Notes under the pieces: generated by a model
What the model saw: the letters and a program-made list of their open reading frames with translations, nothing else
Databases searched by the model: none
Told to the model about the DNA's origin: nothing
Program-made: the position numbers and the translations under genes
Part shown: positions 5,275 to 62,978 of the stretch, in pieces
Layout of the letters: every line of letters starts with the position of its first letter
Numbering within the stretch: the stretch's first letter is position 1
Source of the DNA: Nymphaea colorata
Taxonomy: Eukaryota; Streptophyta; Magnoliopsida; Nymphaeales; Nymphaeaceae
Direction of reading: 5' to 3'
DNA length: 64,000 bases
NCBI RefSeq assembly: GCF_008831285.2
Contig: NC_045141.1
Location: 24,909,315-24,973,314, forward strand

Positions 5275-5427
5275 GCACATATTTGCAATTTGCGAAGTGG
5301 GCCTATAAGGGCAAAGCCATTCATGTGTTTTAGACGGTGATATATATATATATATATATCACCGTCTAAAACACATGAATGGCTTTGCCCTTATAGGCCC
5401 ACTTCGCAAATTGCAAATATGTGCATG

Positions 5428-17891: not shown

Positions 17892-17981
17892 CCTCACCAT
17901 TTGCTTCATTCATTCCCACCTCACTTCTCAGTCCACTTTCTTTTCACCTCATATTCGTCCTCTTTCAAACAGCCTGAAAAA

Positions 17982-18743
17982 ATGTTCCTCCTCAAGACAC
18001 AATCCTTGGCCCTCTTGTTGCTGCTGCTAGCAGTTGCACATCAATACTCTAGGACCCATGCGGCCGCCGACCCTACCGCCGGAGGCGTCCCGGAGGCGCC
18101 GCTGGAGTTCTACATGCACGACATCTTGGGGGGCAGCGGCCCAACCGCCAGACCGGTCACCGGCTTGCTGGGCAGCATCTACAACGGTCAAGTGCCCTTT
18201 GCCAGGCCGCTGGGCTTCAGGGTCCCACAAGGTGGTGTGGCCATCCCCAACCCTAACGGTGCCATCCCCACCTTCAATGCCCATGGTGTCCCGTTGGGAA
18301 CCGGACTGTCCGGCACCAATTACGTGCGTTCTTCTTCGGATGGAAGGAACACCGATGTGCAAACGCAAGTAGGCACGGATGGGCTCAGCTTGGGGTTCGG
18401 AACGATCACGGTCATTGACGACCAGCTGACCATGGGACCGGACATGGGCTCGCAGCCAATCGGAAAGGCTCAGGGGGTGTACGTGGCGAGCTCCGGGGAC
18501 GGATCTTCACAGATGATGGCGTTCACGGCCTTGTTGGAAGGGGGTGAGTTCGGGGACAGTTTGAACATGTTCGGCGTGTACCGCCTAGGCGTCCCCATGT
18601 CCCGGCTGTCCGTGACGGGAGGGACAGGCAAGTTCAAGCACGCCACTGGGTTCGCCGATGTCCAGCCACTCATCCCAACGGGTCAGCATGTGACTGATGG
18701 CGCCGAGACGCTGCTGAGGATCACCGTCCATCTTGTCTACTGA
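17982..18743 (+). CDS. Dirigent protein, ESB1/DIR-e type
   Basis: This single-exon gene encodes 253 residues. Dirigent proteins steer stereoselective coupling of phenylpropanoid radicals in the cell wall. The DIR-e clade includes ESB1 (DIR10), needed for Casparian-strip lignin. I chose the ATG at 17982 because it starts a typical signal peptide (MFLLKTQSLALLLLLLAVAH); the in-frame upstream codons add no expected feature. The mature part shows clade-specific stretches: PLEFYMHDILGGSGPTARP, TGLLGSIYNGQVPFARPLGF, LGFGTITVIDDQLT, GKAQGVYVASS, FTALLEGGEFGDSLN and a C-terminal ETLLRITVHL. The length resembles the shorter DIR16/DIR18-like members rather than the N-terminally extended ESB1. The coding sequence is markedly GC-richer than its flanks. 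The likely site of action is the apoplast. The exact substrate is unknown. Confidence 0.95.
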   Translation: MFLLKTQSLALLLLLLAVAHQYSRTHAAADPTAGGVPEAPLEFYMHDILGGSGPTARPVTGLLGSIYNGQVPFARPLGFRVPQGGVAIPNPNGAIPTFNAHGVPLGTGLSGTNYVRSSSDGRNTDVQTQVGTDGLSLGFGTITVIDDQLTMGPDMGSQPIGKAQGVYVASSGDGSSQMMAFTALLEGGEFGDSLNMFGVYRLGVPMSRLSVTGGTGKFKHATGFADVQPLIPTGQHVTDGAETLLRITVHLVY

Positions 18744-28340: not shown

Positions 28341-28984
28341 GCTATGTGCTTCATCAGAAAGTGTAGGGAAGTTCGTTACATGGGTAGTTGGTTGAATTTT
28401 AACTTATTTTCAGGTTTTTGTTTGAACTAGTCGATGATGAACGGACGACCAGAATGGGTCTTCCTCAGCGGAGAAATCTTGGCCGTTGCTTCAGTCCACG
28501 GCAAGACATCTGCAGTAGAGGTGCGTATATTTCTGGCACATTCTTGCTGCGTCTGCGTTTGACGAATTTTCGGTTCTTTTTTCAATTCATCAACCAGTTT
28601 GGTACAGTATCTAGAATTGGAACTCGCTTGGTGATTCTTGGTGACATTGAGTCTCTAATCTTTGGAAGCTGTTTGGTGTTTCTTGGTGCATTTAATTTGT
28701 GAAAATGTCACGTAGATTTCGGGGACCAGGTACAGAATTCAATCAATGGAAGGATTCACGGGTTCTTTTGTTTTTTCGTTTTGTGGTAGGATTGAAGAGA
28801 AAAGAAATCGTGGCCAGACGGGTTGGTGTTGAAGGATCTTGACATTCTTGTTATTGTTATTTGATTTTTCTTCCTCCTGATTCGTGTTTAGCGGGCACGG
28901 AGTCCTTACAGAGTGAGCGTTTTTCCGGCGAACCACTGACGAGTCCTGCAGCTTTCTTTTGTTCCGAGAAAAGAACCTTCAGAC

Positions 28985-31900
28985 ATGTTTTTGATTCAGA
29001 GAAGAGTGGTGGTGTTTACGATTTGGGCGGTCGTTTTCACTTCCGTTTGTCCGGCTCGTGGCGTGGATGTTGGTGCCGAAGTTGAGCTTCTATGGGCCGT
29101 GAAGCAGAATCTTATTGATGACTTCAATCATTTGAGAGATTGGAATGCTTCTGATCCCACGCCTTGCAGCTGGACGGGCGTTCATTGTATCGGTGATTAC
29201 AATCTCACTGTTTCATCTCTCAATCTGAGCTACATGAATCTGTCGGGGTTTTTATCTCCCAGCATTGGCGGATTGATCAGTTTGACCTATCTTGATCTTT
29301 CTTTCAACTATATCTCCGGGAAAATTCCGGCGGAAATTGGAAAGTTGTCTAGTTTGGAGGTTCTGCTATTGAACAACAACAATTTTGATGGGGAGATCCC
29401 ACCGGAGTTGGGTAACTTATCTGCCTTGGTAAAATTGAACCTGTGCAATAACAGGCTTTCTGGGCATCTTCCTAGTGAACTAGGCAGGCTTTTGGCTCTC
29501 CAGGAACTAGTTGCATACACCAACAACATCTCTGGGCCTCTGCCACCTTCTCTCGGTAACTTAAAGAACTTGACGACATTCCGATCAGGGCAGAATTCAA
29601 TCTCTGGTAGCATACCTCCTGAGATAGGTGGGTGTGAAAGCTTGGTGACTCTTGGTTTGGCCCAAAACTCGTTGGAGGGCCCGATCCCCAAAGAACTTGG
29701 TAAGTTACAGAATCTGAAGGATCTGGTACTTTGGAGCAATAGTTTGTCTGGAACAATTCCGAAGGAGCTCACGGATTGTAGAAAGCTCGAACTACTTGCA
29801 CTGTACGAGAACAACCTGGCTGGAGAAATTCCTGCGGAGATTGGTAAGCTCACATTTTTGAACAAGTTATACATATACAGGAACAAATTAAATGGAAGCA
29901 TACCGAAGGAGATTGGCAATCTGAGTCTAGCAACTGAGGTTGACTTCTCGGAGAATGAGTTAGTGGGAGAAATACCAAAAGAACTTAGTAAGGTAAAGGG
30001 CTTGCGCTTGCTCTACCTTTTCCAGAACCATCTTTCAGGCGTTATTCCTGTAGAACTTGGCAGCTTGAAGAATTTGAGCAAACTTGATCTTTCCATCAAC
30101 AATCTCACAGGTTCCATTCCTGTTGAATTGCAGTATTTGACCCAGCTGATCACATTGCAACTGTTTCAGAATGAGCTTACTGGTACCATTCCTCAGGCTC
30201 TCGGGCTTTCAAGTCCTCTGTGGGTACTTGACTTATCAGAGAACGCTCTCAGTGGCCCAATTCCTCGCTATCTATGTAAAAACTCAAACTTGATTCTGCT
30301 TAATCTGTGGTCTAACCAACTTACTGGGAATATTCCCAGTGACATAAGAAACTGCAAGCCGTTGGTACAAATTCGTGTGGGAGACAACCGCCTCACTGGA
30401 AGCTTTCCTGCAGATCTCTGTAAGCTGGATAATCTGACTACCATTGGATTGGACAGGAACAAGTTAAGTGGCCCAATCCCTCCAGATATAGGAAATTGTA
30501 AAACGTTGCAAAGACTCCATCTCTCAGGTAATTATTTTACGTCCTCCTTGCCTATGCAGATTGGGCTTCTAACCCAGTTGGTGGACGTCAACATTTCCTC
30601 CAATAAGTTGACAGGTTCCATCCCTAAAGAGATAGTTAGCTGCATGAAGCTTCAAAGACTTGATCTTAGCAATAACTTATTTACTGGTACCATCCCAAAA
30701 GAAATTGGGACCCTTGCACAGCTTGAGTTGCTTAGGATTTTTGGTAACAAGCTTTCAGGCACAATACCCTCATTCTTAGGGAATCTCTCACATTTGATTG
30801 AATTGCAGATGGGTGACAATGTGTTTTCAGGTAGCATACCATCACAACTGGGTCAGTTGTCAAGTTTGCAGATTGCCATGAACCTAAGCTGGAACAACCT
30901 TTCTGGTGAAATACCGGCTGAGTTGGGCAATCTTGACTTGCTAGAATATCTTCTTCTTAACAATAATCACCTTTCTGGAGAGATTCCACTTACATTTGCT
31001 AATCTTTCAAGTCTTCTAGGATTCAATGTGTCCAATAATAACCTCACAGGGCCTATTCCTGAGGTACCATTGTTGCAGAACATGGGCATTAGCAGCTATA
31101 TTGGAAATGAAGGGCTTTGTGGCAATCCTCTTAGTAGCTGTAGCTCTCCACCAGAAGCTGATACTCCAGCACCACGGGAGGATGTTAGATATAGATTGGG
31201 AAAAACATTGGCAATAATATCTGTAGTTGTTGGGTCTGTTTCATTGGTGCTCATTGCAGTTGTCATCTATTTAATCAGACGGCCAGTTGAGGTGATTACA
31301 CCTTTCCAAGATAAACAATGTTATACAGATTCAGACATGTATCTTCCCCCAAGGGAGGGTTTCACCTTTCAAGATTTGGTTGAGGCTACAAATGACTTTG
31401 ATTGTAACTCCATAATAGGAAGGGGTGCTTGCGGAACAGTTTACAAGGCTGTGATGCCCACTGGGCAGGTTATTGCTGTAAAAAAGCTTGAATCATATAG
31501 AGAAGGGAATAACATTGATAACAGCTTCCGTGCTGAAATTTCCACTTTGGGAAAGATAAGGCACAGGAACATTGTGAAGCTCTATGGCTTCTGTTATCAC
31601 AAGGGCTCCAATATTTTGCTTTATGAATACATGTCTAAAGGAAGCTTGGGTGAATTGCTTCGTGGGGCATCGACAGTTCTGGATTGGAAGACTAGGTATA
31701 AGATTGCTCTTGGTGCTGCTGAGGGACTATCATATTTACATCATGATTGTAGGCCACGAATCATTCACCGGGACATAAAGTCAAACAACATCCTTCTTGA
31801 TGACAATTTTGAAGCTCATGTCGGGGATTTTGGATTGGCAAAGGTGATTGATATGCCATACTCAAAGTCAGTCTCTGCTGTTGCAGGATCTTATGGGTAC

Positions 31901-34173
31901 ATAGCTCCAGGTAATTCCTAGAGAATGTATATGGCTTGAATATTTTGAGTTGTTTGAGCCATTTTTTTCTGTGATCATCTCTTCATTGGGAACTCCCCTT
32001 GAATATATCGATTTTATTGGCCTATAGTTCCTATTGTTTAGATACATCATTGTACCTATTTGATTCATCCTGTTATGATTCACTGATGGAATGATTTTGT
32101 ATACCGTTGGATCCAGCTGTCACCATCTTTGACACACTTGCAGTCAAATTAAATAAATGACGGAAATGGCTATTGCTTAGTGAATGCACTTCCGCTCCTA
32201 TAGGAACTGCAAGGTTCATTGGTTAAATCTGCAGAGGGTTTCCTACATCATACGTCACATTGTCATATTAGCCTTCTTCTAACTGTAGAGCTGAACGACC
32301 ACTTTGGCAGACTGTGCTTTACATATTTGAGGTATGATGTTCAGGTCTAGTTGGCAATTAGAGTGTTCTTGTATATACATGCGCATGCAAGAAAAGCCAA
32401 GCACGCCCAATATAGGCCAACCAGTCCATAAAACAATCTGCAATGAGCAAGTGAACCTCTTGGTAACTGCCAACTGGAAAGAGATACAAACTTTTTATCA
32501 TGTGGCTTTGGCTTTAGAGTGTAGCCTATGTATTGTGGACAACCAGAGTAGGTACATTTTGCATTGTAACCATGAGAGTCTCCGTCTGGTGTGAAAACTT
32601 GGTGTAATGGCATTCCCGACCTCAGCATAGAAACTTTGGCAAATGTGGCATTTAGCTTGTTTACTTGAGCAAATGCTCTACCTGACAGTCATGAAAAAAG
32701 AAAGCAGTATATGAGAAGTTGATATTGGTCCAACAAGGCATGTAGGAGTAGATGACCAGCTAATGATGCCATATATGCTGTTGCAACTGTAGAGATGATG
32801 GCATCAACAATCAATTGGGAGGATACTTGCATACATATGCTATATGTTGCTAATGTAGGGCAGTTGCCAGCTAGAACCACATAGATGTGGAACATACTTG
32901 TCGGTACATATGGAAACCACAGACAATTGACTAAGAGTAATGAAAGATATGCCAGTTACGAAGTGGATAATATTGAAGAAAGCAAACAATTTAAATCTTC
33001 AGCAGATCACATAATTTGCCAAATAGGTTATGATAGGTTAGGTATATGCTATCATGAACAAAATCTCAGAGCACATACTTTTTTGTGGCATTACTGTGCT
33101 AAAGTTATATCTGAGTCACATACATGGCTTCTTTAATCTCTGTTTCGTCTGAGTCTTTCATGAATAATATATGTTAAGATCCGGTTTACAGTTAAATGGT
33201 TCAGACATTTGTCCCTTTTCAAAATGAGACTGGAACTACCAGCCTTTATTGGCAGAGGTTCTCCTAATCACAACACGAAATGGTATTCTTTCTCATAACC
33301 CTGTACCTTAGAGAATTGAAGCAAGTAATTCTACACAGGACCTGAGACAGAATGGCATGCACATCCTTGCTTTTGTCATTGTCATGTACCAGGTGTCTAT
33401 GAGAAGCATAAAATCAAATAGCATTTCTGCAGTTTTTTTCTTAAAAATATATGCTTTCATACTTCACAAATGAGCTTACTAGCTTCCAATGTAATTGGTA
33501 GTTTAGTAATGTGAAGATCTAGTAAATTTGCAGAACCTGTAATAGCGTTGGTAAGAATTTAGGGGATGCATCACGTGACATCCTCAATATTTTTTTATGC
33601 ATATGGTGACTTTGTCGACAACAGATTGGTTTTTCCCTGTTCCCCTTCATCAGTGGCCAGAGCACCTTTTTCTCATTTTTGTATTAAATAATTTTCTCAA
33701 TGTGCTTCCTTCAATGCTGACATTGATTTTTACCATATCTACTGGTGTTGATGCTTTTACTTGTTTTGTTGTTCACAATGCATACATTCCGCTTATTGGT
33801 GGTGGATTTTTTGTTGACAGAATATGCATTCACGCTTAAGGTTACAGAAAAATGTGACACATACAGTTATGGAGTTGTCCTGTTGGAATTGCTTACTGGT
33901 CGGACTCCTGTTCAACCATTAGACCAGGGGGGTGATCTGGTGACGTGGGTAAAGCATTCTGTTCAAAGATTTTCTCTATCTTCTGGAATACTTGATGATC
34001 GACTAAATCTGGATGACCAAAACACTGTTGACCACATGACAATTGTGCTAAAGATTGCATTGATGTGCACAAGTACGTCACCTTCTGATCGTCCATCAAT
34101 GCGAGAAGTTGTGTTAATGCTGATGGAGTCTAGAGACAAGGACGAATATTCTGGTTCAATGAGGGAATCCTAA
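28985..34173 (+). CDS. LRR receptor-like kinase, At5g63930-like
   Basis: This is a plasma-membrane receptor kinase of 1092 residues in two exons, 28985-31910 and 33821-34173. The phase-1 intron splits the codon of Glu in GYIAPE in the activation segment; the join keeps frame (SYGYIAP then EYAFTLKVTEK). A signal peptide covers about residues 1-27. The N-terminal cap TPCSWTGVHC is followed by more than 20 plant-type LRRs (LxxLxLxxNxLSGxIPxxLG), a C-terminal GLCGNPLSSC cap, and a transmembrane helix at about 741-764. The kinase shows Gly-rich GRGACGTVYKAV from residue 812, Lys833, HRD at 928-930 and DFG at 948-950, so it looks catalytically competent and of the RD class. The sequence closely follows Arabidopsis At5g63930/At2g33170 (LRR subfamily XI-like). 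The ligand is unknown. Confidence 0.95.
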
Positions 34174-42800: not shown

Positions 42801-45800
42801 ATGTACCTTCTAAGTTGCAAAAATGAAGCTTCCTGTGTCGTGAAACATTGCTGTATCTCTTGTGTCTGCTCTTGTTTATCATCAGATTGAAGTGTACAAA
42901 GTACAAACTTTGATCATCACTTAATATGTGAAACCATTGAACCTTGTCCGTTTCATCCAACTCATGTAGCATTTCGCAACCTGGAGATTTTTTACCAAGA
43001 GATACTTGGATGATAAAAGATATGAGAACTTATCAGCAAGTTTGGAATAGGGTGTCTTTTCCCAACTTGAACGTCTTAGGCACAAATTCGTATTTGTGTA
43101 TATCCACTATATTGTCAATGGTATCTTATTTTTCGGCCTTTAGTCTTCTCAGCTGTAATAGGTTATGTTACCTTCGTTTGAATGCTTGCTCGGGTTAGCG
43201 GGAGACCTGCTAGGCAGACATTATAGAATAACACCCTTTGATGAGAAATACGAGCAAGAGGCTTCGAGAAAACTAGTGTTTTCTGAATTATATCTTAAGC
43301 TCTTAAATTGAGCATAAACAGTAAAATCTGATAGTGGAGAAAACACATAATTTGCATTTTAGGAAAACTGTTCTTGCATTGGATCTGCATTTCATCTCGA
43401 TCCTACAAATTTTTTGGTGGTACTTTTATATCCCATTTATCATAGGTTACGTGTGAAGTGCTTGCCAGATTTTGGCAGTAACCACCCTGAAAATGGTGAC
43501 ACTGTCACATATACGGAACAAAAGTATGAATCTCGTTCTGGTAAGCAGAGTGAAACAAAATCAATCTAATTGCAGATAATATATGATTTATGGTGGAATT
43601 TTACATCTGGTTCGTAATTGTTCCCTATGAGATTTCTGATACAAATATTTTGCTTGCTTAGATTCTCTTTTGAAGAACTTTTGAAGAACTTATTTCTGGT
43701 TGTATTTTTACATCACAGGTCCATACTTAAGTTGCTTGATGTTCTGGTGGCTCTAGATCACCTTAAGAATGCAAAAGCTAGTATACCCAATGATTTTTCA
43801 TGGTATAAAAGGTATGGATATTTCTTTGCTTAAACCTCTGTGTCAGGTTCATTATTGCATAAGACACCCTCAACAAAGTTGATTATAGTTCCAACTTCCA
43901 TGCATTTTATTGAATCTATTAGCAGGAGTTTTTACAGTTTAATGGTTACTTCTGCTTTGCATGGTTTGTGAATATTTTACCTTATCCAATTTCCAACCTC
44001 GTAACTTCATGGTTGATCAGTTGTGGTCCTTTGGATATTGAAAACCACTGTTTCCTTGTTAGTTTTGCTATATCAAATTTGTGCGTGGTGTGATGCATTC
44101 CGTATCTTGATTTGATGACTAATATATTTTGATAATGTTTGTGAGCAATGTGAGTATTATTGTCTGTTGAATAAAGAGTATCATTTGACTTGTTTGAGTA
44201 CAGGACATTTACTCAAGTGAGTGCACAATGGCAAGATACTGATTCAATGAGGGACGAATTGGATGATTTACAGGTTACTGGATTTTATTTATCGATCTCT
44301 TTGATGCAAATGAGCTACATTTTGCAATAATTTTCTTGGATTCTCTTGTGAGATATATAAGTAGAAGCTTGTTCATGGAATTTACGGCAATCCTTTTCTC
44401 TAGTGTCATTGCTTGCCTTCCTAGGGATACTCATGGAAGTCCTTTCCTATTTTAACAGTTCATCAAGTATTTTTAAGCTTTAGTAGTTCTTCCTTTTGCA
44501 TAACACATTAGGTATCTAACTTTTTCTTTTCTTGCAGATATTCTTGAGTACAAGGTGGGCTATTCTGCTGAACTTACAAGTGGAAATGTTTCGTGTGAAC
44601 AAGTATCCATTCTTTATACATTGGACCAATATACATCCTTAAATCGACTAGAAATGTTATGGAAATAAATGAACTTCTATTATGGAACCTGGGAAAATCT
44701 GATTTTGATTAATTTTTTTGGATATGTTGTTCTGTTAAAAAATGAACAACGAGTTTACTGTTTTAACCATATATGGTAACATTTCTAATACATTCTTTGG
44801 TACTTGGAAGGTGACAATATGTTTAGTTTATGTTATTCAGATCTTGATAGCACTAGTACCGGCACTTGTGGTTCTTGACTAACAGATAGCATGGAGGACA
44901 TTCTTCAGATTCTTTTACTATTCTGTGTTGAGACTCTGGAGTTGGATTTTACCCTTCTGTTCCCAGAGCGCCATGCTCTTCTGCGTGTTCTGCCTGTGCT
45001 CGTAGTCTTAGCAGCAGCATCTGAAAAGGATAGTGATTCACTATTTAAAAGAGTTAAAATCAATCGTCTCGTTAGCATATTCAAGGTATTATATTTATAT
45101 CTTTGTTCTACGCTATCCAGACATCTTGTTTTGATTGTGTAGTATATCCACTGAATGTGGCATTTTCCTTCTGGTTTTTTCTTGTCTATATTAAGGGCCT
45201 TATTTTTCTTTTTGCAGAATGATCCTGTCATCCCTGCATTTCCAGACCTTCATCTTTCTCCTGCTGCAATGCTGAAAGAGCTAGCAATGTACTTTCAGAA
45301 GTTCTCAAGCCAAACCCGCCTTTTGGCTTTACCTGCACCACATGAAATCCTTCCCCGCGAGGCACAAGAATATCCTATGCAGTTTATATGCTTTGACTGA
45401 TGCTCTGTTGAGTCGTCTTGTGTTCTCTTTCCTATGATAGTGTGTTGAATAGTTCATGTACATCCAACAACGTAATCACCAAAATCTTTTAGATAGTACT
45501 GACGGCCATGAATTCCCAAAAATGTATGCTAGGTGAGGATTGTCTGACCAAAAATACTGTGATACACCTTAACACCCTTGGTTGTAGCCAAAATGGAGAA
45601 CTCGGTTGCTAGATGTGTCAGGTCATAATATTTTCTCATGGAGACATTATTGCTTCTCGTGTCCCCTTTGTGCTTAGCTTCTTCAGTTCTTTTTTTTCAC
45701 TAGGAACCACTATCTCTATTTTCTGTTTATTGCTTTTGTGTTGTTTCCTGAAAAAAGAAGTAGAATATCCGTTAACTATATGTTCTTGATGAAATCCTTT

Positions 45801-48800
45801 TTGTTAGTCTTATACTGTCTGTACAATTTTATAGATGTGTATCTTTGCTACTAATATTTGGATATCTTCCTTGTTGGATCTTGAGATCTTTATTTTCTGT
45901 TTTATTTAGATGAAAAAATGGAAAGGTCTTTAGCCCCAGTTAACTATTTTAGGAGTTTGGCTAGTTTTACTACCTCTTCTCTGGGATCCTCACTTTAAGT
46001 TTCAGTTGAACTTGTCTCTTTTTCTGCAAATGTGATCCTTATCTGCGTACATACCAGAAACATTATCTAATAGTCAACCACATTGGAGCTATACGTACTG
46101 AGCATGACGATTTCGCTGTACGGTTTGCGTCTGCATTAAATCAGGTGCTTCTTATGTTTGTATTAGACACTGTGTCAGCGTTAGTAATTCATTCTTGTGA
46201 CTTTGTTTTCTGTTTCTTCTGCATGGTTTGGCATGGCTGTTGAGGGGTTGTTAGCTGCACTTTGTTTTGGGGTAGTTTGGTTGCTGCATATGGTCTTGGC
46301 ACTTTTAAAGTTTCTGTTTCAAATTTGTTCCAGATCGTATTGCTGAAGCAGTCAGATGCATCAGATTCTGAGTGGTGCAGGGAAGTTAAGGGAAATATGT
46401 ACGATGTGGTTGTCGAAGGTGTTCAGCTTCTTAGCAAGTGGACTGGACGTATTTGGGAGCAGTGTGCATGGAAGTTTTCTCATCCCTGCAAAGATATATT
46501 TCCACAGGAGCACGAGACATCAACCTCTTTTTCTGACTATGAAAAGGTCTTTTCATCTGTTTTTATTTTCTGCTTATTGACATCACATTGACTTCATGAC
46601 TTGATGCCAGATATATTCAGGTTACCATTGTTGAAGTTCAATGACTGGTAAAAAAGATTCAGGTTTCATTTTTTCACATTTTTCTGCATGTATATGTCTC
46701 CTCATGTGTGTGTTTTCCTCCACCTAAGTTCCTAACCATTTGACCAGAAAATCATTTACGGAGTGCCATTGAGTTAAAGGGATGTGGTAAATTAAGTTTA
46801 CTTTGCTCAAGCATCAAGGTAAAATGTGTGCAAAATTTTCATGAATTTAATAGATCTAGATGTTTAAGAATAGGCCCTTGATACCAGTTTGTACTAGCCT
46901 AAAAGGCTATGCATGCATGTTTGAGGAAAATGGTCTTTGTAACTCCCTTCCACAATACCATGTGGACTTGATGGACTGTTGAACAAAATCTTTCGTGTGG
47001 AAATCCTCGCATTAACATGCAAGCTTTCAGCTCATGTCAAATTGGACCTTTTTTCCTGAAAAAAGTTTATACTGGTCATAAGTAAAAACTTTGTATGATG
47101 GACACTGTGTTAGTAATGCACCTAGTTATGTTTGATTTTTTTTTTTTCCTGTTAGCTTATTGAAACACTTCTCTTTCTTTTTTTAATGATAAATGCTTCT
47201 TCCAGTGGCAGTTTACTGGACCACTTGGAAATTTGTGGGTCTCGATTGTAGACAACATATGTTTAGATAGTTTAGTCTTTCTTATAGTTTCAGAGAATGC
47301 TGTACGTATGCGCTGATGAGCATTTTCTAGCTTTCATATTCAAATAAATGTTGCTGCTTTCAAATGAAAACACTATTGGCTAATTGCTTCTGAAAAGTGC
47401 TTTCGCTATTCTGCAGGTTGTCCGGTGGAACTATAGTCCAGAAGAGAGGAAAGCATTGGTTGAGCTTGTGAGCTACATAAAAAGTGTTGGTTCAATGATG
47501 CAGAGATGTGATACCATAATCGCTGATGCTTTGTGGGAAACAATTCATGGTGAGGTCCAAGATTTTGTGCAGAATCGGCTAGCAATCATGTTAAGGACTA
47601 CATTTAGGAAGAAAAAGGATCTTTCTAGGTAACATTGTCTTTTTTTGCATATGAATTGGATCCACTTCTTTTTTCTATAGATTTTGCTTTTATGTGCCTA
47701 TAAAATTCAAAGAAATACCTACAAAAGTGTGCAACCAAAAAACTTATATAAGGATAATTCTGTTTTCTATCCAAATCATAGCTGCTGTAAGTAAGTGATA
47801 AATCATACTTGTTGCAAAGAACCCTTGTATAGATTGTATGTATCCTTGTTTAAAAAGTGTAAGCGTACTCTTATAAATATGATGAACAAGGCTGACTAGA
47901 TTGTGTTCCTTTGATCCAATGATTTTGGTGATATCCTGGGTTTTTTGTTTGAATGAAATTTTCCAAATTGCAGGATTTTGTCTGATATGCGGACACTTTC
48001 GGCAGATTGGATGTCAAACACAGCCAACCCAGAAGTTGAGTTGCCATCGGTGCAGCATCCAGGTGAGGATGGCAATGGGAACAACTTTCACCCAAGGGCA
48101 GTTGCTCCAACAGCAGCTCAGGTTTGCTTTCATTTCATATGCTGTTATATTTCTCATGGTTATTTATTTCTAGCTGTTAAAAAGATACCTATGTTGCATT
48201 TGCTAGTAGTATAAACTCATTCTTGGTTTTTGGCACTTACTTCAAAGTTCAAATTTTGCTGTCTTGCAGTTGTGCTGCTTAGCATGATATTAAGTACAAG
48301 TTGAATCATATATAAATTGTTAGCTCATTCTGTTAAAATTTGTGTACAGATGACCTGTGAAGGGTAGATCATTAGCCAGTGAGGAGAAATGCTTGTATGC
48401 AAAACAAGCTATAGCTTCAGCAACATTTTTATTTTTTAAACTTGGAGTTAATTTTTTATTAAATGTGATGTAAAATGTTTTTTTTTTCCTTTATTTAACA
48501 TGTCATTCCTTTTATTCCATATTCTGCAAGTTTGTGGTTTGTCATATAGTATACATGCATTCATGTGCTTCTGTGACATCGATAATTTTCTATTTCATGG
48601 CAGGTGCACTGTTTGCAATTTTTAATTCATGAACTTGTTTCTGGTGGTAACTTAAGGAAATCTAGCGGATTATTTGGAAGCAGTGGCTTGGACATTCCAC
48701 CTAGTGAACTAAAACTCCTGGAATCATTCTTCCACAAACTTAGCTTCTTCCTGCATGTTATGGATTACACAGGTTTGCTTTTCATACATTTTTTTTCTTG

Positions 48801-60100: not shown

Positions 60101-62978
60101 TTTTACCATAATGAAAATTATCCTGAGCTGGATCTTGTGAAGAAACAATTAATCATAATTTAACTATTTTAGATCAACCTGCTACTCATGGCCTCTTAGT
60201 CCAAAATCTCTTCTACCTTGTCAATGTCATGCAAAAAATTGCCTTGTGGGGCTTAGATTAGGGGAAGCAATCCATTATTTTCCTGTCCAATTTAAACAAC
60301 TTATCGGCAGTAGGTATCAAATTTGTGCTGGTATACCAAAGTAACAATGAGTGATCGGCTTCCTGTAGAACATACCTAGCCTATTATGTGTTAGAATTTC
60401 GGACCATTTTCTCCATCATAGATTTAGGTAATTAAAAAACTTTTCTTTTAGATAATTTGAGATCATTGTCACACTGTATAGGGTTCATTTAGAAAGGGAG
60501 GGGACTTTTATAATTTAGCTTTAATGTCTTCTGGATTTGCTAGCTTAAGCTTTTTGGTTTTGTCTGACTGACTTCATAAAAACTTTCCTGATTGTAAAGT
60601 TGAGGTTTACTGGCAATAGATGAACACATCTTAAGTTCCTTCTTCTGTTATCCTGGACGATTGATTAATTTTTGTTGTGGATGCATGGGTATAATTTTCA
60701 ATGAAGACCTAAATCACATAATTCTGGAAAGTGATTGCTTCTGAAATTCTTGTGTTGTTAATCTAATTTGCATTTTAAGCTTCTATTTGTTCTCTTTAAC
60801 ATCTGATCATTATAATTAATGTTTTTCATTTTCCTTAATAGATTTATTACTGTGAGAAAAGAGATGAAATTAGCAATATCAGTCGCTTTCTTGGTTGTTT
60901 TTTGTAGATCTCTTTTACAGGAATAACCTGCATACTGGGAGTGTCTTGGAGTATAGTCTTGCATTTATCAGTGCTGAGTTGGATAAATACCAAAGCAAAT
61001 GGAATGCTACTCCGAAGACTGGCTTCATAGATATCACAACAGCAAAGGACTTCTATCGTCTGTTTAGTGGTCTCCAGCTTGTAAGATGACTCCTGCGTAT
61101 TCAACTTTAATTACGCTGATCTTAGACTTTTGAAAGTTGGTTAGTTCATGCAAAGGAAATTATTTATTTATTACTGATCATGGATAACTCGTTGACTAAT
61201 ATTATCTCATAAGTTCTCTTGAAGTTGACATCATGAGGATTTTTTATATATCTAATGAGATTTTTCATCAACTTTGAACGAGCATTGGTTGAACTATAGC
61301 TGGTAGTTTTGTGGAAAACTGTTTTCTGTCTCAAATTTTACTTGGGGTCTAATTCTCAATCCTCTCCTAATATTTGATGATAGTTCCTTTCAGCCTAGTA
61401 AAATTGTGCTACCATTGGGACATCTTTTCTTCCTTGTGTTTCTCCTTTGTGATAGTGAAGTAAGGGATGGTTTCAGTTTGGATTAGCTCTCTGGGTGATA
61501 ATATTACATTTTTTATTTTAGGAATTGAATTAATGTCTCAAATAGTGTGTTGACATCTTTTTGTTGGTTCTTTATTGCAACGGCCTTTCAAGTTTCCCTA
61601 GTAATGAAGATATATCCGCCATGTTCGGCAGGAATCTTCATGATTAACTTTTGTGACACTATTTCTGGACATAGTGATCTATGCATTTTTTTTTTATGGA
61701 TTGGAATTTGCTACCAAAGTTATATAATCTAAATTCAGCAATCAGTTGTTGTAAGAGCTCCATTTGTGGAGTCATTAATTCCTGTAAGGTCAATGTCTTA
61801 TTCTTTTCTGTTTGTGGATGGCAAGCTGGGTATATGTCCTCTTTAGTGTGCATGTCTGATGAGCGACAAGAAGATTTAGTCTGGTGGTTTGTTTCCAGCT
61901 GGAATGTTTTTGTGAAATGTATATGGCAAAAAGAAAAATTGTTTTGCAGGTTAGTCATTAATATGTAAATGTGAACTTCAGCTGCATAATATACTAATTA
62001 CAAACTGCAGAGTGTTATTATGACTGTCAGCTCCTTGTTTTTTTTATTGAGGAACTAATTCTACTGAACATTAATAGAAATAGCAATTGGTTCGATGTGT
62101 GTTAGAGTTTGTCATTGCACTTGGGAACTATATTTTTCTTCCATGTTATTTGTAAAATGAGTTGTTTGGTGACTGAAATTTCATGAATTGCCAGGGATAT
62201 CTTGAAGAGTACAGTCAGGAAACGCTGAACAAGAGTGAAGTTCTTGGTGATTCAGTTGCCTGGGGAGGATGCACAATAATCTACTTGCTTGGTCAGCAGA
62301 TGCACTTTGAACTCTTTGACTTCTCATATCAACTCCTCAACGTTGCAGAGGTTGAAAGTGTGGCAGTTGCTCATTATACTTCCTCAGAAAGGGCTAAAAG
62401 TGCTAGCTACTTGCAGGTGCGCATGTTAAGTTGTTAACTCTACGCCATTCTTGTACACAAAAACTAACGGATAAAGCTAGATGCAAGTGATTACTAAAGC
62501 AGTTTTTCTTAAATGCCAGTGAGGATAAAAAAATTTACCAGAGAAGTTGAAATATTTCACTGTGTTCTGGCTTTTTTTTAGGGTTTGCACTAACAAACTG
62601 TATACTTTGATCTTTTCTGAGAAACAAACCAATTTTGTGTTGCACATTCAAAGCTCTTGCTACCATTGCTTGCTTGATGTGTAACATTTTTTGGCTTGCT
62701 ATAAATCTTTGGATTTCTTCATCCTGTAAATCATTGATTAACGGTTATAGTATTAACCCTGGCTGTTCTGCATGTGAAACAAGGGATGGGATAAACTGAT
62801 AGATGGTGCAAAAAAAGCTAGAAGATTGAACAACCATGTCTTCTCGATGCTGAAAGCTCGTTGTCCACTGGAAGAGAAGATGGCATGTGCTATAAAGCAA
62901 AGTGGTGCGCCTTTACATCGTGTCAAATATGAAAACACAATTTCTGCTTTTGAAACATTGCCGCAGAAGGGAGCTTGA
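36862..62978 (+). CDS. PIR: PIR/SRA1 (CYFIP family), SCAR/WAVE complex subunit
   Basis: PIR is the CYFIP-like subunit of the SCAR/WAVE complex; it links ROP GTPases to ARP2/3 actin nucleation and shapes trichomes and pavement cells in Arabidopsis (PIROGI). Thirty exons join in frame to 1289 residues, close to the Arabidopsis length: 36862-36915, 38106-38178, 38329-38393, 38706-38783, 39733-39852, 41881-41951, 43719-43811, 44204-44273, 44538-44602, 44890-45085, 45218-45369, 46051-46144, 46334-46546, 47417-47628, 47974-48121, 48604-48772, 49423-49499, 49969-50139, 51152-51228, 51325-51427, 52158-52277, 52347-52490, 54345-54488, 56599-56742, 57013-57100, 57609-57736, 58976-59186, 60908-61080, 62195-62416, 62784-62978. 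The N-terminus reads [18 protein letters not shown]; conserved blocks include [61 protein letters not shown] and [10 protein letters not shown] near the end. No stop or frameshift is seen. Introns 9 and 11 look U12-type. The last acceptor (62781-62783, AAG) has a weak pyrimidine tract. Confidence 0.96.
41035..41150. repeat. Perfect 58-bp tandem duplication in PIR intron 5
   Basis: 41035-41092 and 41093-41150 are identical copies starting CTTTTTCACCCAAAAC. Identity suggests a recent event or an assembly duplication. Confidence 0.93.
44603..44889 (+). other. Probable U12-type GT-AG intron (PIR intron 9)
   Basis: The donor GTATCCATT matches the U12 GT-AG consensus GTATCCTTT at eight of nine positions. 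TTCTTGAC at 44871-44878 resembles the U12 branch site and puts the branch A about 12 nt before the exon. The frame demands the acceptor ending at 44889 (GATAG); the nearer AG at 44884-44885 would bring in a stop and is too close to the branch site. Confidence 0.7.
45370..46050 (+). other. U12-type AT-AC intron (PIR intron 11)
   Basis: The intron starts ATATCCTATG and ends GCGTAC. Frame continuity and the conserved peptide EAQEYQKHYL require exactly these ends; no GT-AG pair gives the peptide. TCCTTATC at 46036-46043 matches the U12 branch consensus TCCTTAAC at seven of eight positions, about 9 nt before the acceptor. Confidence 0.9.
53547..54007. mobile_element. hAT-type MITE in PIR intron 22
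   Basis: GTCCATGT at 53547-53554 is repeated exactly at 54000-54007 and flanks a 445-bp element (53555-53999). The ends are CTATGTCACATAGGTA and, inverted, CTAAGTCACATGGGTA. The subterminal regions are rich in GGGTACGGGTACG-type repeats. An 8-bp duplication and short termini indicate the hAT superfamily. No coding capacity is seen. Confidence 0.85.
54636..55372. mobile_element. Non-autonomous hAT element in PIR intron 23
   Basis: GTTCCTAT (54636-54643) and GTGCCTAT (55365-55372) flank a 721-bp element with ends CAGTGTT and, inverted, CAATGTT. The left part has repeated GTATCGTGCGATACG palindromes, and similar GATACG motifs recur on the right. A short open stretch near 54904-54972 reads [17 protein letters not shown] then stop, like the acidic C-terminus of plant hAT transposases, so this is probably an internally deleted copy. 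Confidence 0.75.
55490..55880. repeat. A/T-homopolymer-rich segment in PIR intron 23
   Basis: Long A or T runs alternate with GTGAAAAAC-like motifs, resembling 16790-16980. Minus-strand frames rich in Phe here are low-complexity artefacts. Confidence 0.5.
57125..57161 (+). repeat. (CT)n microsatellite just inside PIR intron 25
   Basis: About 18 CT units begin 24 nt downstream of the exon 25 donor. Confidence 0.95.

Follow-up and report, generated by a model that had tools for sequence, protein, structure and literature searches.

The 681 nt segment at 45370–46050 is very probably (about 95%) an AT-AC intron of the U12 type (minor class). It is intron 11 of a plant PIR/SRA1 gene with 30 exons; the remaining introns have GT-AG ends. 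Positions refer to the window, the whole stretch of 64 000 nt of Nymphaea colorata DNA that was analysed. An AT-AC intron of the U12 type is the only reading found in which the frame, the splice-site class and the branch motif fit together. This class, which the original prediction had proposed, is supported by the frame, by the splicing signals and by genes for U11, U12, U6atac and CENATAC in the assembly. The features on which the assignment rests are as follows.

36862–62978, + strand: PIR/SRA1 coding span, 30 coding exons and 29 introns, with a Pfam FragX_IP match of 1014 bits
45218–45369, + strand: exon 11
45370–46050, + strand: intron 11, AT-AC, phase 2, ATATCCTATG...TCCTTATCTGCGTAC
45370–45378, + strand: putative U12-type 5' splice site, ATATCCTAT, matching RTATCCTTT at 8 of 9 positions
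46035–46043, + strand: putative U12-type branch site, ATCCTTATC, matching TTCCTTRAC at 7 of 9 positions
46049–46050, + strand: 3' splice site AC
46051–46144, + strand: exon 12

The PIR/SRA1 (CYFIP-family) gene is complete within the window, and its model of 3870 nt including the stop codon encodes 1289 residues in one open frame. The exons were placed with a provisional PIR reference protein, written out rather than taken from a database, and the junctions were then set by frame, similarity and splice sites. The product carries both domains that mark a PIR/SRA1 (CYFIP) protein, FragX_IP at residues 350–1250 and the Rac1-binding domain CYRIA-B_Rac1-bd (25.8 bits), and when its first 519 residues were used as the query, human CYFIP1 was the sole PDB sequence matched (E = 9.4e-54). 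The family assignment is thus independent of the provisional reference. Exon 11 has a single match in the 408 Mb assembly. All 28 of the other PIR introns are taken as GT-AG, including introns 12, 20, 22, 24 and 25, for which GT-AG was chosen although the best junction with any ends scored 1 to 4 points higher, and intron 29 (62417–62783), whose junction was set by reading the sequence. A search for relatives of the exon 14 peptide confirmed none among 4 pattern stretches in viral_contigs or 44 in genome_contigs, two collections not intended for plants.

Three other stretches of the window drew attention. Rfam mir-36 matches lie on both strands at 5299–5400, at 48.2 bits where the cut-off is 48; a match on both strands points to an inverted repeat and a spurious hit. 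A long open reading frame at 28940–34173 encodes leucine-rich repeats and part of a kinase, resembles an LRR receptor kinase by eye and seemingly continues in a second frame, and the open reading frame at 17892–18743 appears by eye to be dirigent protein-like.

At the junction, exon 11 ends with ...CACAAGA at 45369 and exon 12 starts with ATACCAGAAACAT at 46051. The intron, which is 65% A+T, splits codon 346; joining GA|A continues the frame as EYQKHYL, and the one long frame that the AT-AC junction restores is read directly from the letters. Without removal of the intron, translation from exon 11 runs into an in-frame TGA at 45398–45400. The coordinates and the letters given in the original prediction are borne out. 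The same mRNA, however, is produced by four registers, shifted by 0 to 3 bases, with the ends AT-AC, TA-CA, AT-AT and TC-TA. The peptide alone is therefore insufficient to fix the junction, which is fixed instead by the consensus of the intron class: shift 0, with AT-AC ends and the ATATCC start, is the sole register with a known intron class and matching signals. The register with the AT...AC ends that define the AT-AC subtype of U12 introns accordingly preserves the protein. The proposal that only ATATCC...AC restores EYQKHYL holds in the sense that only AT-AC fits a known class, but not in the sense of a unique mRNA. No single GT-AG intron preserves the protein. Among 24 single GT-AG or GC-AG alternatives that keep the frame between the start of exon 11 and the end of exon 12, the best GT-AG intron retains 32 of the 82 residues of these exons. 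In a scan of junctions scored with the provisional PIR reference, an AT-AC junction outscored the canonical one in none of the other 28 PIR introns.

The peptide at the junction had been described as conserved, and this part of the argument needs qualification. EYQKHYL is not conserved in animals: the alignment with human CYFIP1 has a gap of 13 residues spanning the junction, which makes a comparison with animals at the EYQKHYL codon impossible from the protein alignment, and CYFIP1 was dropped as a guide to the junction for this reason. The Pfam match starts at residue 350, just past the junction, and exons 11 and 12, translated on their own as a query of 82 residues, had no match in PDB. In consequence, the conservation of EYQKHYL in plant PIR is presumed from the provisional PIR reference.

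The U12-type 5' splice site has the consensus RTATCCTTT. In the window, both strands included, only 29 of 11 238 AT dinucleotides start a 9-mer with at least 8 of 9 matches to it, and a branch motif with at least 7 of 9 matches lies at the right distance from 4.2% of 6615 AC sites. When random pairs of positions were drawn from both strands, with four registers allowed for each, 1 in 400 000 passed all of the tests. On the sum of the 5' site and branch scores, introns 9 and 11 tie for first place among the 29 introns with 15, and the next has 13. The likely branch A of intron 11, at 46041, is followed by 9 intron bases, which is shorter than the optimum of 11–13 nt given in the accessible part of PMC3584512. 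The original prediction of a good U12 branch motif about 9 nt from the 3' end is right about the distance, but 'good' is somewhat generous for a 7/9 match with a T in place of the second consensus A. According to the same accessible text, branching can occur at either A of the consensus (PMC3584512); for plants, the portion available of PMC5932401 reports that an A in the upstream position favours splicing. The A kept in intron 11, 46041, is this upstream A.

The computed duplex of U12 with the branch site of intron 11 has −8.0 kcal/mol, compared with −12.0 kcal/mol for the consensus, and the strongest computed pairing engages the remaining A and leaves no bulge. An A at position +8 of the 5' site weakens the pairing with U11 (−4.7 versus −6.6) and that with U6atac (−4.5 versus −6.5). 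Introns 1, 10, 17, 19 and 23, five of the other 28, form computed U12 duplexes near the 3' end that are stronger than −8.0, so duplex energy does not discriminate between introns, and it was dropped as a sole test for the U12 type.

Three other explanations of the junction deserve weighing. Introns with AT-AC ends that are spliced by the major (U2) spliceosome do exist as a small class, as described in the accessible parts of PMC3584512 and PMC8280824, and intron 11 could be one of them: its branch site is imperfect, and 65% of the 17 bases scored ahead of its 3' end are pyrimidines (41% T), a mid-range value among the 29 introns that gives no clear sign that a polypyrimidine tract is lacking. 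Its start, ATATCCT, is nevertheless the U12 motif and unlike a U1 site, and neither its joint first rank on 5' site and branch nor the rarity of equal random pairs would be expected of such an intron, which leaves U2 splicing very improbable. The best frame-keeping GC-AG intron, 45362–46057, would be a U2 intron giving a protein five residues shorter; it retains 77 of the 82 residues, losing AQEYQ, and the human CYFIP1 alignment is gapped in this very stretch. Against this, its donor GAG|GCACAA is poor, its score, the best of any canonical junction in the scanned range, is 49 compared with 87 for AT-AC (both against the provisional PIR reference), and its use would turn the U12 signals at the AT-AC ends into a chance coincidence, so we give it just as little credence.

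A third explanation is that the AT-AC junction is mimicked by a pair of GT-AG introns flanking a small exon, by an assembly error or by a decayed allele. The scan for GT-AG junctions enumerated single-intron models, which leaves room for the two-intron arrangement, but the sole GT donor near the end of exon 11 and before the stop, CA|GTTTAT at 45382, would add codons. Decay finds no sign in the gene, since the other exons give an intact frame of 1289 residues. Taken together, these mimics appear even more improbable than either of the U2 introns, and the U12-type AT-AC intron remains the preferred reading.

The machinery for such an intron is encoded in the same genome, where genes for U12, U11, U6atac and CENATAC are all present. 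The assembly has one match each for U12 snRNA (88.9 bits) and U11 snRNA (75 bits) and five for U6atac (best 97.6 bits), all over the Rfam cut-offs, and the CCDC84/CENATAC family is represented on a single contig by three pieces, of which the best scores 107.9 bits. A search for U4atac gave no match in the assembly, nor in any of 14 controls. The U12 gene contains GTAAGGAAAA and GAGTAAGGAAAAC, and the best U6atac gene contains AAAGGAGAGA. A promoter-like element, AGTCCTGTAT, is shared by the loci of U12, U11 and the best U6atac match, about 65–80 bases upstream; at the U12 and U11 loci it takes the form of AGTCCTGTATCG followed by TATAAATA. It resembles the plant snRNA promoter element (USE). 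In human cells, depletion of CENATAC affects 92% of A-type (AT-AN) minor introns, according to the text available from PMC8280824.

Considering the signals, the frame and the snRNA genes, we infer that intron 11 would be spliced as an AT-AC intron by the minor pathway. U11 would pair with the ATATCC 5' site and U12 with the branch site TCCTTATC, where one unpaired A, most probably 46041, would act as the nucleophile. U11 would be replaced by U6atac, and the first AC past the branch, 46049–46050, would serve as the 3' splice site. The product would have GA|A joined and the EYQKHYL frame kept. The output of PIR would then depend on the minor spliceosome, and the intron is presumably old in plant PIR genes.

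A second candidate lies two introns upstream of intron 11, with the following features.

44538–44602, + strand: exon 9, 65 nt, by number the counterpart of an exon absent from the rice prediction
44603–44889, + strand: intron 9, candidate U12-type intron of the GT-AG subtype, phase 2, starting with GTATCCATT
44871–44879, + strand: branch-site candidate of intron 9, GTTCTTGAC, with its A at 44878 and the last intron base 11 bases further on

Intron 9 matches the 5' consensus at 8 of 9 positions and the branch consensus at 7 of 9, with a distance of 11, and the region before its 3' end is pyrimidine-poor (47%). The features that characterize GT-AG introns of the U12 type, an RTATCC 5' site, a branch site about 11–13 nt from the end and no polypyrimidine tract, are all found here, but the U12 duplex computed for it is weak, at −5.2 kcal/mol. 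On these sequence features, intron 9 is probably a U12-type intron as well. Introns 9 and 11 are both in phase 2. The survey in PMC7367187 examined how far U12 introns cluster within genes and, in its accessible part, describes a bias against phase 0, which does not reach significance in rice, maize and soybean. It is possible, though on balance doubtful, that plant PIR genes hold a close pair of U12-type introns of differing subtypes, GT-AG for intron 9 and AT-AC for intron 11, that predates the split of monocots and eudicots. If two U12 introns are present in PIR across plants, actin-nucleation phenotypes would provide a testable read-out of minor-spliceosome defects.

Intron 11 belongs to a known kind of intron and is ordinary as a type. 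The original prediction called AT-AC introns a small minority even among U12 introns; the share varies between counts, from 4.8% in one quoted by PMC5932401 to 13–26% for four plants in the survey of PMC7367187, both figures coming from the accessible parts of these papers. The equivalent of intron 11 is quite possibly already listed for model plants, and U12DB, ERISdb and IAOD may contain it. A literature search of main texts found no paper tying At5g18410, SRA1, CYFIP or Os03g05020 to a U12-type or minor intron, and At5g18410 had no occurrences among the matches listed in a wider search of the minor-intron literature. PMC13115098 was the only match for U12, minor spliceosome and CYFIP1 together. 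What is new here is the second candidate, intron 9, together with the connection to an annotation error already on record.

Among known systems, intron 4 of CBP20 is an AT-AC intron of the U12 type in all ten plant species studied, as stated in the available portion of PMC5932401. It resembles PIR intron 11 in its AT-AC ends, its U12-type 5' and branch sites and its A+T content of about 65%; it differs in belonging to another gene, and the branch site of PIR lacks the second A. Tomato SRA1/Hairless has 30 exons and encodes 1287 residues, and its organization is said to match that of Arabidopsis SRA1 closely (PMC5049383, accessible part). The exon number is the same as that of PIR in N. colorata, and the products differ by two residues (1287 versus 1289).

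The closest comparison is with rice. The cDNA of the rice PIR orthologue LPL2 (LOC_Os03g05020) has 30 exons, as does the gene described here, whereas the database prediction has 27 and lacks exons 9, 11 and 12 (PMC5301933), in line with the earlier expectation that gene finders allowing only GT-AG would mis-predict this gene. The two rice versions differ in length by 307 nt (3862 minus 3555; PMC5301933), and exons 9, 11 and 12 of N. colorata PIR amount to 311 nt. The string 'splic' has no occurrences in the main text of that paper. By exon number, the exons absent from the rice prediction are both flanks of intron 11 and the exon preceding intron 9, and this hints at conservation of the intron. 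Since a GT-AG gene finder is expected to drop both exons flanking an AT-AC intron, rice LPL2 probably has the same AT-AC intron, on the assumption that the exon numbers correspond. Intron 11 would thus offer a concrete cause for the failure of the rice PIR annotation, in which these exons were restored only once the cDNA had been cloned: a minor-class intron is beyond the models of GT-AG gene finders.
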